Source: a virus. From it: DNA of 40,837 nt. The notes under the pieces are model-generated. The model was given only the letters and a program-made list of their open reading frames with translations, had not been told where the DNA came from and did no database searches. The translations under genes were made by a program, and so were the position numbers. Where the stretch lies: the IMG/VR virus record IMGVR_UViG_3300025759_009508, positions 1 through 40,837 of that record; one strand, 5' to 3'. Positions 33,908-39,467 of the stretch are shown here, piece after piece (within the stretch, counting starts at the first letter, position 1; each line of letters opens with the position of its first letter).

Positions 33908-33939
33908 TGCATATGGTCTTATTTAAATATTAATATATT

Positions 33940-33966
33940 AAGGACTCTTGAGGAGTCCTTTTTTTT
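33940..33966 (+). terminator. Rho-independent terminator
   Basis: AAGGACTC / GAGTCCTT with loop TTGAG, then eight T. Almost the same hairpin as at 338 and 34859. Confidence 0.9.
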
Positions 33967-33977
33967 GTGGAAAGCAA

Positions 33978-34006
33978 TTGACACCTCACCCGTAATGCCT
34001 TATAAT
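33978..34006 (+). promoter_or_regulatory. Consensus sigma70-type promoter
   Basis: TTGACA (33978-33983), 17 bases, TATAAT (34001-34006). Both boxes perfect. It drives the Asn/Gln-rich exported protein gene at 34047. Confidence 0.9.
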
Positions 34007-34046
34007 GATCTCGAACACAAGTTCAGACACCTCTCAGAAAAATTAA

Positions 34047-34832
34047 ATGAAAACCAAAGTATTTTTGTCTACTCTTGCAATCCTCGGAACTCTAACCACT
34101 CCTGTTTTTGCATCTGGTCAAACCATTAAAAATGGTAACGATGTAGAAAATACTAATCGCAATAAAGTAGAAAATACCAATCGTAACTCCATTGATAATA
34201 GTAGCGATAATACCAATCGAAATCGCAATAAGAACGACAACTTTAATAGCAACACTGCTGACAACAGCAACCGTAATACAAACAACGCTGATAATACCAA
34301 CAGCAATATCCAAGGACAGGGCCAAGGTCAACTCCAAGGTCAAGCACAACAAGCTACCTCTGACCAAGGACAAGATCAATCTCAACAAGCTTCCTCCAGT
34401 CAGTCTCAAACCTCTGCTAATAATGGAAACTCTCAAGGAACATTTGTTGATGCTTCAAACCGTAGCACCAACACCTATGTTGAACTTCCAGAAGCAGCAG
34501 TAGCACCTCTTCCTGTTGGAAATGCTGGTAGTGGTGGTATTGGCGATATCGTCGTTCCCTTACCCGGTTTCCAAGTTGGTGCTTTCTATTCCAATGATGA
34601 CAATGCTGGATATGGGAGTGGTACAAGTCGTAATGCTACTGGTGTAACTGCTGGTTTCAGTGTTCCTCTTGGTGCTGGTGAGTTTCGTGAAGCAGCACGT
34701 AATGAGGTTCGTCGTCGTGCAGCATCTCAACGGATTCAGTTAATCAAAGAAGCAGTATGGCTTCAGCAAAATGATATTGAAGTCACTGCTGAAGCATTCC
34801 CCGAACATTATGCTGCAATGGGTCTTGATTGA
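34047..34832 (+). CDS. Exported Asn/Gln-rich low-complexity protein
   Basis: 261 aa. Seen: a signal peptide (KTKVFLSTLAILGTLTTPVFA), an Asn/Asp/Arg-rich region with many (N)TNRN-type steps (about 26-88), a Gln/Gly region (QGQGQGQLQGQAQQ, about 89-125), a Ser/Gln stretch, then a folded-looking part (FQVGAFYSNDDNAGYG, TAGFSVPLG) and a basic helix (FREAARNEVRRRAASQRIQLIKE). The late part resembles an outer-membrane-type or adhesin end. Strong early promoter in front, own terminator behind. Surface or periplasmic role inferred; function unknown. Confidence 0.6.
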   Translation: MKTKVFLSTLAILGTLTTPVFASGQTIKNGNDVENTNRNKVENTNRNSIDNSSDNTNRNRNKNDNFNSNTADNSNRNTNNADNTNSNIQGQGQGQLQGQAQQATSDQGQDQSQQASSSQSQTSANNGNSQGTFVDASNRSTNTYVELPEAAVAPLPVGNAGSGGIGDIVVPLPGFQVGAFYSNDDNAGYGSGTSRNATGVTAGFSVPLGAGEFREAARNEVRRRAASQRIQLIKEAVWLQQNDIEVTAEAFPEHYAAMGLD

Positions 34833-34858
34833 TATAAAAAACTAAATATTAATGCAAT

Positions 34859-34884
34859 AAGGACTCTGAATGAGTCCTTTTTTA
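34859..34884 (+). terminator. Rho-independent terminator
   Basis: AAGGACTC / GAGTCCTT, loop TGAAT, then T run. Confidence 0.9.
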
Positions 34885-36279: not shown

Positions 36280-37341
36280 ATGACTACTTCATCACTTTCA
36301 CCCCCAATTACACAAAGAGGATGGTTCGATGTCTTGGATGACTGGCTTAAACGGGATCGTTTTGTCTTTGTGGGCTGGTCTGGACTACTACTTCTTCCCA
36401 CTGCTTATTTGTCAATTGGTGGCTGGCTTACTGGCACAACTTTCGTTACGTCGTGGTACACCCACGGGTTGGCAACTTCCTATCTTGAAGGTGCTAATTT
36501 CCTTACAGCGGCTGTGTCAACGCCTGCTGATGCTATGGGTCATTCTCTTCTTCTACTTTGGGGTCCTGAGTCTCAAGGGGACTTTCAGCGATGGCTCCAA
36601 CTTGGAGGGCTTTGGTCCTTTGTTGCTCTCCACGGTGCATTTGCACTTATAGGTTTCATGTTACGTCAGTTCGAACTGGCACGTCTCATCGGTATCCGTC
36701 CTTACAATGCGATTGCTTTTTCCGGTCCTATTGCTGTATTCGTGTCTGTATTCCTCATCTATCCTTTGGGACAGTCATCTTGGTTCTTTGCGCCGAGTTT
36801 CGGTGTTGCGGCGATTTTCCGATATTTATTGTTTATCCAAGGATTTCATAACATCCTCCTCAACCCCTTCCACATGATGGGTGTTGCGGGTATTTTGGGA
36901 GGAGCACTACTCTGTGCTATCCACGGAGCAACTGTAGAAAATACTCTCTACGAAGATGGTGAAATGTCTAATACATTCAAGGCATTTGATTCTACACAAG
37001 AAGAGGAGACCTATTCAATGGTCACTGCTAATAGATACTGGTCTCAAATCTTTGGTATTGCATTCTCCAATAAAAGATGGCTCCATTTTTTCATGCTTTT
37101 CGTGCCTGTAACAGGTCTCTGGATGGCGTCTATTGGTATTATTGGATTGGGTCTTAATCTTCGTGCTTATGAATTTGTAAGTCAAGAAATTCGTGCTGCT
37201 GAAGATCCTGAATGGGAAAACTTCGTAACCAAGAATACATTGTTGAATGAAGGAATGAGAGTTTGGATGGCAGAAATTGACCAGCCACAAATGAACCTAA
37301 ATCTACCAGAAGAAATTTTCCCAAGAGGAAATGCTCTCTAA
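36280..37341 (+). CDS. psbD: Photosystem II reaction centre D2 protein
   Basis: 353 aa, full length. Seen: [23 protein letters not shown] (start block), [73 protein letters not shown] (Tyr-D), [17 protein letters not shown] (His ligands) and the acidic [15 protein letters not shown] end. D2 pairs with D1 in the PSII core. Many cyanomyoviruses carry psbD with psbA; here they are 3.2 kb apart. Followed by a terminator and a homing endonuclease gene. Confidence 0.99.
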
Positions 37342-37357
37342 ATAATAATGCTTTTGT

Positions 37358-37430
37358 CTGTGGTTATTCAAGAGCAAAAAGATTGGGGGCAGAAATGTCC
37401 CTTTTCTTGTATAAATAATAATAACCACAG
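37358..37430 (+). terminator. psbD terminator and late box within an 11-bp inverted repeat
   Basis: CTGTGGTTATT (37358-37368) is inverted as AATAACCACAG (37420-37430). Inside lie GGGGCA-GAAA-TGTCCC (37386-37401, one G-U pair) with TTTTCTT, a terminator, and TATAAATA (37410-37417), a late box for the endonuclease gene. Confidence 0.7.
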
Positions 37431-37442
37431 TCAAAAAGCAGA

Positions 37443-38123
37443 ATGAACTATTACACTTACGCATATTTGCGTCAAGATGGAACACCATACTATATTGGTA
37501 AAGGTAAAGGAAATAGAATATATCAAAAATCTGGAGATGTCATAAAACCTCCAAAAAATAAAAATAGAATTATATTCTTAAAACAAAATTTAACCGAAGA
37601 TAATGCTTTTAAGCATGAGATTTACATGATTTCTATCTTTGGAAGAAGGGATTTAAATACTGGAATTTTACATAACAGAACAAATGGTGGGGAGGGTGCA
37701 TCTGGTCACATTCAAAGTGAAGAAACAAAACAAAAAAGAAGCATTGCTTTAAAAGGAAAATCCAGACCGCAAGAAGTAAAAGAAAAAATAGGAAATAAAA
37801 ATAGAGGAAAAACTCATAGTGAAGAAACCAGACAAAAAATAAGTGATATTCATAAAGGTAATACTTATTGGGTTGGAAAAAAACATAGTGAAGAATCAAA
37901 AAAGAAAATGAGAGATGCTAAAATTGGTGGCACAAGTCATATGAGTGGGAAAACTCACAGTGAAGAAACCCGACAAAAAATAAGTGCCTCTAAAAAAGGA
38001 AAATCAAATGGATGTGTGGGTAGAAAATATTCACCAGAAACAATAGAAAAAATGAGACAATCTGCTCTCAATAGAAAAAATAAAGAACTCAAAACACTGG
38101 TAGAAAATTTGGAAGCTCTATAA
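37443..38123 (+). CDS. GIY-YIG homing endonuclease with NUMOD3 repeats, next to psbD
   Basis: 226 aa. Seen: YYTYAYLRQDGTPYYIGKGKGNRIYQ (GIY-YIG core as Y-A-Y...Y-Y-I-G, R at about 24), EIYMISIFGRRDLNTG and NRTNGGEG, then DNA-binding repeats of the NUMOD3 type: SEETKQKRS, GKTHSEETRQKIS (twice), GKKHSEESKKKM and YSPETIEKMR. This is a free-standing SegB-like homing endonuclease. Downstream of psbD it mirrors the EndoVII gene next to psbA. AT-rich with Lys-rich coding. Its stop begins the first copy of a 36-bp repeat. Confidence 0.92.
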   Translation: MNYYTYAYLRQDGTPYYIGKGKGNRIYQKSGDVIKPPKNKNRIIFLKQNLTEDNAFKHEIYMISIFGRRDLNTGILHNRTNGGEGASGHIQSEETKQKRSIALKGKSRPQEVKEKIGNKNRGKTHSEETRQKISDIHKGNTYWVGKKHSEESKKKMRDAKIGGTSHMSGKTHSEETRQKISASKKGKSNGCVGRKYSPETIEKMRQSALNRKNKELKTLVENLEAL

Positions 38124-38156
38124 ACCACTCCCTAAACCGTCACAGCACTCCTTGAC
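38121..38156 (+). repeat. 36-bp direct repeat, left copy
   Basis: Bases 38121-38156 are identical to 38684-38719. The left copy includes the stop of the GIY-YIG gene and ends in CTCCTTGAC. It holds the 5' arm of a terminator and TTGAC of a -35 but lacks the matching 3' arm and -10. Confidence 0.95.
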
Positions 38157-38167
38157 CACCTATCAAA

Positions 38168-38680
38168 ATGAAAAATTTTAAACCACAAAATTTTCTTAAG
38201 AAATATAACCAATATTTATTTTTCTATAATGGATACCTTTCCAATTGGGATGATACTCCCTTTTTAGATCCTCGTAGTACTGTTTTATATAACTGTTCTG
38301 AACAGTATATGATGCAAAAAAAAGCACTATTATTTAATGATTTTGATATTGCTAAAAAAATTATGACTAAAACTGACCCTGGGGATCAAAAAAGCCTTGG
38401 GAAAAAAGTAAAGAACTTTGATAAACAAATTTGGAATAAACATGCAAGGCAGATTGTTTATGAAGGTTGTTTCTATAAGTTTACTCAAAATGAAGATGCC
38501 TATGAATATCTATTGAAAACCAAAAATTATTATCTGGTAGAGGCATCGCCATATGATACTATCTGGGGTATTGGTCGTGACAGTAGTGAAAGGGGAATTG
38601 AAGATCCCAAATACTGGAGAGGGACTAACTGGTTAGGTCAAGTATTGACCCAACTCCGTGAAGATCTTTATTACAAATAA
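38168..38680 (+). CDS. NADAR-domain N-glycosidase
   Basis: 170 aa. Seen: LFFYNGYLSNWDDTPF, YNCSEQYMMQKKALLF (E in EQYM is a key residue), KSLGKKVKNFDKQIW, YEGCFYKFTQNEDAYEYLL, YYLVEASPYDTIWGIG and WRGTNWLGQVLTQLRE. These are all the signature blocks of the NADAR (YbiA/COG3236) family. Known: NADAR proteins cleave N-glycosidic bonds of riboflavin intermediates, and some remove ADP-ribose from guanine in DNA, reversing DarT-type toxins. Inference: an anti-defence enzyme against DarTG-like systems or a metabolic repair enzyme. Bracketed by a 36-bp repeat, so likely a recent insertion. Confidence 0.9.
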   Translation: MKNFKPQNFLKKYNQYLFFYNGYLSNWDDTPFLDPRSTVLYNCSEQYMMQKKALLFNDFDIAKKIMTKTDPGDQKSLGKKVKNFDKQIWNKHARQIVYEGCFYKFTQNEDAYEYLLKTKNYYLVEASPYDTIWGIGRDSSERGIEDPKYWRGTNWLGQVLTQLREDLYYK

Positions 38681-38683
38681 AAC

Positions 38684-38719
38684 TAAACCACTCCCTAAAC
38701 CGTCACAGCACTCCTTGAC
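38684..38719 (+). repeat. 36-bp direct repeat, right copy
   Basis: Perfect copy of 38121-38156, 563 bases downstream. Here the sequence continues into GGGGTGCT and a -10, so this copy is the complete terminator/promoter. Confidence 0.95.
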
Positions 38720-38768
38720 TGGGGTGCTTTTTTATTGTATACTGAGAGGGTTAGAAACCCTCTTTTTT
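38707..38768 (+). promoter_or_regulatory. Terminator fused with the purC promoter, plus leader hairpin
   Basis: AGCACTCC/GGGGTGCT (one G-U pair) with a T run is a terminator (38707-38733). TTGACT (38715-38720), 17 bases, TATACT (38738-38743) is the purC promoter. Next AGAGGGTT-AGA-AACCCTCT (38745-38763) and T6 form a second terminator that covers the likely start site, so it would stop upstream readthrough more than purC mRNA. Confidence 0.8.
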
Positions 38769-39467
38769 ATGGAAGTAATTATAGAAGGCAAGGTCAAAAC
38801 TGTTTATCAGGGTGATGATGCTGATCGTGTGATCATTGAGTATCATGATAAGGTAACTGCTGGTAATGGAGAGAAAGAAGACTATCCTTTGGGAAAGGGA
38901 TCACTCTGTTGTAGTATCTCATCTCTTATCTTTGAGAAACTTGCTGAAGCAGGTATTCCGACTCACTATGATTGTATGGTTGGTGCAAACAAAATGATTT
39001 GTAAGAAGGTAGACATCGTTCCATTAGAAGTTATTTGTCGTAATCGTGCTGCCGGATCTATTGTTCGCGAGACAACTCTTAAAGAAGGACAACCACTACC
39101 ACAACCAATTGTTGAGTTCTTTCTGAAGGATGATAGTAAGCATGATCCTTTACTTACACCAGATCGTGTGCGTTTGATGGGATATAATCCTGAACCTTTT
39201 GTTGAGATGACACTACGGATTAATGATTATCTTCGACAGATGTTTTATATTATGGGTATTGATTTGGTTGACTTCAAGATTGAGTATGGTTATGATGCTC
39301 ATGGTGATTTGTATCTTGCCGATGAGATTAGTCCTGATAGTATGAGACTGTGGAAGATTGGTGGTGATGAACGATTTGATAAGGATCTATTCAGAAAAGA
39401 TGAAGGTGATATTGTACCTGCCTATCGTGAGATACTTGACCGACTACAACCCCTTGCTATTCAATGA
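38769..39467 (+). CDS. purC: SAICAR synthetase (phosphoribosylaminoimidazole-succinocarboxamide synthase)
   Basis: 232 aa from ATG 38769, the first ATG after the promoter. Seen: EGKVKTVYQGDDADRVIIEYHDKVTAGNG, of which the GKxKxVY and D-KxTAxNG parts are the ATP loop; PLEVICRNRAAGSIVRE (substrate loop), VDFKIEYG and LADEISPDSMRLW. These match PurC, which joins aspartate to CAIR with ATP in purine synthesis. Cyanophages often carry purC and purM to sustain nucleotides for genome replication. Heads an operon running to purM. Confidence 0.97.
   Translation: MEVIIEGKVKTVYQGDDADRVIIEYHDKVTAGNGEKEDYPLGKGSLCCSISSLIFEKLAEAGIPTHYDCMVGANKMICKKVDIVPLEVICRNRAAGSIVRETTLKEGQPLPQPIVEFFLKDDSKHDPLLTPDRVRLMGYNPEPFVEMTLRINDYLRQMFYIMGIDLVDFKIEYGYDAHGDLYLADEISPDSMRLWKIGGDERFDKDLFRKDEGDIVPAYREILDRLQPLAIQ

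Follow-up and report, generated by a model that had tools for sequence, protein, structure and literature searches.

A NADAR gene at a probable site of module-mediated cassette exchange between psbD and purC in a Llyrvirus-like cyanophage fragment

How does a gene come to lie between psbD and purC of a cyanophage, bracketed by two perfect copies of a short sequence, with the control region of purC left whole? The question is raised by a NADAR gene in a virus genome fragment of 40,837 nucleotides (IMG/VR record IMGVR_UViG_3300025759_009508; this whole stretch is the window). Over 91% of its first 20 kb, the window was 92% identical to Synechococcus phage S-SKS1 (Llyrvirus), a similarity that no other named phage came near, and this match identifies the window as a fragment of a T4-type cyanomyovirus (Llyrvirus-like). 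The gene order talC, psbD, variable genes, purC, purM is common to many relatives. We consider it probable that the psbD-purC interval is a plastic cargo site, at which cassettes are exchanged through a repeated terminator-promoter module in the manner of the promoter-early stem-loops (PeSLs) of T4-type phages. Features of the interval are collected in Table 1.

Table 1. Features of the psbD-purC interval (window coordinates)
Feature	Position	Strand	Basis
psbD (photosystem II D2), upstream edge of variable interval	36280-37341	+	Pfam Photo_RC 2e-74; kept in relatives
TATAAATA, T4-late-promoter-like box upstream of endonuclease	37410-37417	+	Read in sequence, counted; promoter role putative
Homing-endonuclease ORF, 226 aa, GIY-YIG-type N terminus by sequence, NUMOD3 repeats	37443-38123	+	NUMOD3 1e-33; phrog homing endonuclease
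C-terminal tail ELKTLVENLEAL, also carried by the different (HNH) endonuclease that S-SKS1 has at this locus	38083-38123	+	DNA comparison
Left repeat copy, half-module ending at TTGAC, without terminator or -10	38121-38156	+	Repeat search, folding, -10 check
NADAR cargo gene, 170 aa, intact	38168-38680	+	Pfam PF08719 1.7e-48
Right repeat copy, first half of full terminator-promoter module	38684-38719	+	Repeat search, module comparison
Intrinsic terminator stem-loop of module, with -35 in loop	38707-38728	+	Folding; covariation
Promoter-like TTGACT-17-TATACT for purC	38715-38743	+	Read in sequence; kept in module copies
Second hairpin and T-run in purC leader, just before ATG	38744-38764	+	Folding; present in S-SKS1
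purC (SAICAR synthetase), downstream edge of variable interval	38769-39467	+	Pfam SAICAR_synt 1e-67

The repeat pair and the module before purC

The two repeat copies are identical at 36/36 positions, in direct orientation, with an offset of 563 bp and the NADAR gene between them. With up to three mismatches allowed, a search of the window for the 36-mer returned these two perfect copies and nothing else, and 100 shuffles gave none. No longer exact direct repeat was found in the window, where the runner-up (29 bp) lay within a coding tandem repeat.

The right copy starts 3 nt past the NADAR stop codon and runs on into a full module of ~60 bp, which consists of a terminator that carries the -35 of the next promoter in its loop, followed by the -10. 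The terminator has an 8-bp stem and a T-run (-13.5 kcal/mol; z -3.1), and the promoter-like site comprises TTGACT (38715 to 38720), a 17-nt spacer, and TATACT (38738 to 38743). Across 20 distinct module copies, 96.9% of stem cells were paired; 7 of the 20 carried a two-sided change from G-C to C-G, and the covariation score exceeded that of all 500 shuffles. This covariation supports a real RNA stem, and we infer that the module acts as both promoter and terminator. A composite of intrinsic terminator and sigma-70-type (early) promoter in one short motif was found at the right copy only. The left copy had no fold (-2.0 kcal/mol) and no usable -10. The earlier note's description of the repeat, with a right copy that continues into the terminator and purC promoter and a left copy cut off after TTGAC, was thus accurate.

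Bases 1 to 3 of the left copy are the stop codon TAA of the upstream endonuclease ORF, and the inner left junction of the insert reads TTGAC-CACCTATC. The TAA that opens the right copy was considered as a relic of the same stop codon; this idea was dropped, as modules of other phages often have CTAA ahead of CCACT at their start. The right copy is homologous to the stretch that precedes purC in many cyanophages, and DNA similarity to relatives starts at 38687, within this copy. From the -10 onward (window 38738), the purC leader is again matched in S-SKS1, S-RIM12, L054, and L068 (L numbers denote sequences compared here), and the hairpin between the -10 and the purC start codon is strong.

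The NADAR cargo gene

The translated gene scored 165 bits against PF08719 (family cut-off, 35.1), and its residues E45, K52, E125, D130, and W133 align with the corresponding residues of 8bau_A, for which catalytic or ADP-ribose-binding roles have been described (PMC11543638). The product is a predicted NADAR ADP-ribose hydrolase in which the published active-site residues are kept. No DarT partner adjoined the gene. Its GC content (31%) is low, yet it falls within the range seen along the window, 17% of sub-windows being as low, which makes this weak evidence of foreign origin.

The insert holds the NADAR gene and short spacers only. Neither a transposase or integrase gene nor an inverted repeat pair at the insert ends was found, so that the transposase and terminal inverted repeats of a transposon-type insertion with target-site duplication are lacking. 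A PF08719 search of S-SKS1, ACG-2014b/e/i, and S-RIM12 returned no NADAR. The best relative of the protein was from Synechococcus phage B23 (70% amino acid identity), and relatives in IMG/VR were at most 50% identical. No donor phage with a module-flanked NADAR gene was found among the IMG/VR relatives and B23, and the B23 genome gave no module match.

Relatives and the order of events

Comparison with relatives indicates which junctions are old. In S-SKS1, the order is endonuclease tail, full module, two other genes, second module, another gene, and purC; its HNH-type endonuclease ends in ...ELKILVENLEAL-TAA and directly abuts the full module. Since S-SKS1 has the tail, the TAA, and a full module in succession, the outer junction on the left predates NADAR. 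That on the right (module-purC) is likewise old, because ACG-2014e and ACG-2014i carry one full module directly before purC, contiguous with it and without NADAR. NADAR was absent from all relatives tested except B23, where its position differs. With ancestral outer junctions and relatives that lack the gene, NADAR is a newcomer and both inner junctions are new. No genome was found with exactly the window's endonuclease, a single module, and purC, and an exact 36-mer scan of IMG/VR for an empty-site allele gave no contig, save possibly the window's own record. The left copy matched the purC-side module of S-SKS1 at 31/31 bp and was less like the S-SKS1 module 3′ of the endonuclease, the pattern to be expected if it was copied recently from the right copy. 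We infer that the NADAR event was recent, and a putative excision of the gene between the two copies is plausible.

The earlier note read the arrangement as a NADAR insertion that duplicated part of the purC control region, and proposed a search for relatives with a single copy and no NADAR. ACG-2014e and related phages, with their full module directly before purC, are such relatives, and together with the outer left junction of S-SKS1 they bear out the late arrival of NADAR at the purC control region. In its strict form, this reading has a single illegitimate insertion duplicate 36 bp of that region, much as a long target-site duplication would arise, and gives the repeated nature of the module no part in the event. 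It accounts for ancestral outer and new inner junctions and for identical copies that both resemble the S-SKS1 purC-side module. However, the insert is one gene with short spacers and no transposase or integrase, and what is repeated coincides exactly with the conserved first half of the module, of which relatives carry several copies. Contig L037 has an exact repeat of this half on either side of unrelated cargo. We regard a single insertion of this kind as possible but unlikely.

It is also conceivable that two strains sharing the 36 bp were joined during metagenome assembly, as the contig is an IMG/VR-type virus record and the module is common to several strains. However, the left copy is incomplete, so that a mis-join would need another molecule carrying a half-module and NADAR, and the arrangement yields intact ORFs and a sensible terminator position. 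Assembler k-mers are normally longer than 36 bp, which also counts against a mis-join. An artefact is therefore highly improbable.

A module family at the joints of variable regions

The module is scattered among phages. Copies, partial ones included, numbered five in L037, four in L027, three in L025, and at least two in S-SKS1, always between small cargo genes; relatives carried two to five copies or pieces per contig, and the 40.8-kb window carries one full and one half module. The same cargo families recur in different orders between module-bearing phages. The contents of the psbD-purC interval differ among S-SKS1, S-RIM12, ACG-2014b/e/i, L037, L068, and L054, with modules at the joints. 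This distribution does not fit the part of the earlier reading in which the repeat is a specific mark of NADAR insertion. The earlier note named two findings that would refute it, and both were made: two full modules are present in S-SKS1, which lacks NADAR, and the module lies scattered between many cargo genes. Its half is also repeated around other cargo in L037.

The two S-SKS1 modules are 82% alike over the first half, and within-contig identity of module copies is only 76 to 82% in several phages, so homogenisation of copies is not universal. A module 83% identical was also seen in cyanopodovirus S-RIP1 (L192:3001-3057), shortly after psbA; its presence in this unrelated podovirus implies that the module crosses phage families. 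A near-exact scan of bacterial genomes for the full module gave no match and hence no sign of a host-chromosome origin.

Among 28 distinct copies of the first half, 25 extend into the terminator; the other 3, in the window, in L037, and in L029, all break off at one and the same base, immediately after TTGAC. L037 (2746 to 5195) has a 32-bp exact direct repeat of the half-module, ending at TTGAC, around ~2.4 kb of cargo, and the half copy of L029 precedes the same cargo; the bracketed cargo of L037 consists of glycine/tyrosine-repeat genes. Unlike the left copy of the window, the half copies of L037 and L029 are followed by another -10 at 17 nt and may serve as promoters.

These half copies raise the alternative that recombination or a nuclease acts on the half-module itself (~32 to 36 bp, with its end exactly at TTGAC) as a separate target, and that cargo is repeatedly inserted at the -35, each time with a half left upstream and a full module downstream. 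If so, the control of the downstream gene would never be broken by cargo insertion. The three half copies that end at TTGAC, two of which (L037 and L029) adjoin the same other cargo, are the evidence for this reading; we consider it quite improbable.

A second cassette in the window has a similar outline. A gene of no known family (34047 to 34832; 261 amino acids) lies between two 41-bp terminator repeats that are 85% identical (33924 to 34883), the first of which is followed by a perfect consensus promoter, TTGACA-17-TATAAT (33978 to 34006). At this place, seven relatives carry one terminator and no such gene, which is a directly visible empty site. That a cassette of generally similar build has an empty site strengthens the cassette reading of the NADAR site.

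The neighbouring endonuclease

The T4-late-promoter-like box upstream of the endonuclease gene (TATAAATA) is also present in S-SKS1 (L002) at 2674, and the tail and half-module DNA is 89% identical over 75 nt to S-SKS1 (L002, 3204 to 3278). Alignments with distant HNH relatives extend to the end of the tail, whereas those with the window endonuclease's own relatives stop at residue 212 of 226. By these alignments the tail is assigned to the HNH family, and since the protein's own relatives stop at residue 212, one endonuclease gene appears to have replaced another while keeping its last codons. In L112 and L117, similar tail DNA was seen just past the endonuclease stop codon.

An endonuclease could also have brought in the cargo. 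The GIY-YIG-type enzyme might have cut in or near the module, break repair then importing NADAR with a co-copied flank, so that NADAR would be a homing passenger. The endonuclease gene directly abuts the left copy and seems to have displaced a different HNH endonuclease here, apart from its tail; nuclease genes have been reported at exchange boundaries between phages (PMC10448857), as have endonuclease-flanked cyanophage cassettes (PMC3037559). However, most module-flanked cargo in relatives has no adjoining endonuclease, and neither NADAR nor a module match was found with the closest relatives of this endonuclease (L112-L117). Endonuclease-driven capture is thus an improbable explanation of the NADAR site.

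Proposed course of exchange

Under module-mediated cassette exchange, the reading that we favor, each module would end the upstream transcription unit and start the next one. Its repetition between cargo genes and across phages would supply homology for recombination, the presumed route of exchange, and genes would be gained, lost, or swapped as cassettes between module copies, together with their terminators. NADAR would have come in as such a cassette. The event would have left purC preceded by a complete module and placed an identical copy of the first 36 bp of that module after the endonuclease gene, so that purC control would have stayed intact. NADAR would lie in the psbD/endonuclease unit, ending at the terminator, with the left copy giving it no separate promoter, and its placement upstream of that terminator makes transcription with this unit likely; purC would keep its own promoter.

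The second copy might have arisen in either of two ways: a crossover in the first half of the module that copied the recipient's half to both ends, or a local duplication of the first half of the purC module during illegitimate insertion. Either would produce a perfect repeat that stops at the edge of homology. A plain module-to-module crossover does not predict a left copy without its second half, and this counts against it unless the left end of the donor was already truncated.

Module joints of this kind would help to explain how auxiliary or counter-defence genes such as NADAR can move without disturbing psbD and purC. The module sequence also makes the exchange idea testable across genomes and read sets.

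Comparison with known systems

As a member of the NADAR/YbiA family (PF08719), the window gene resembles its B23 counterpart in having a full-length domain with the published residues present. The two differ in setting: B23 NADAR (L031:2963-6138) sits between genes for nicotinamide-nucleotide adenylyltransferase (NMNAT) and nicotinamide phosphoribosyltransferase (NAMPT), a possible NAD repair cluster, whereas the window NADAR stands alone between the endonuclease gene and purC.

The locus shares with the endonuclease-flanked zwf/gnd cassettes of cyanophages (PMC3037559) and with HEG-islands (PMC10448857) the placement of cargo next to a homing endonuclease gene, within a variable region close to photosynthesis genes. 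In comparison with those systems, the shared boundary here is a regulatory module, and most relatives have no endonuclease at the site. Endonuclease-linked exchange as described in those reports may contribute and is not needed in most relatives.

The closest parallel is with PeSLs, which, as summarised in PMC4503421 from Arbiol et al. 2010 (doi 10.1093/gbe/evq006) and Comeau et al. 2014 (doi 10.1093/gbe/evu129), are promoter-terminator motifs repeated between small genes of T4-type phages and bounding gene exchange. On the strength of that summary, the likeness lies in a composite motif, repeated in variable regions, at the limits of gene swaps; the window module differs in belonging to another sequence family, in carrying the -35 within the terminator loop, and in having a conserved lead of ~20 bp before the stem. 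For cyanophage S-PM2, PMC4503421 concluded that PeSLs occur too thinly to account for gene acquisition. In contrast, the module family described here is dense, with half-modules exactly repeated, and this density suggests that the mechanism operates in cyanomyoviruses other than S-PM2. PeSL-type exchange is already known in T4-type phages, and the NADAR site is a well-preserved example; what the present family would add is a dense set of terminator-promoter modules serving as joints for gene exchange in marine cyanomyoviruses, a route that had been doubted for S-PM2.
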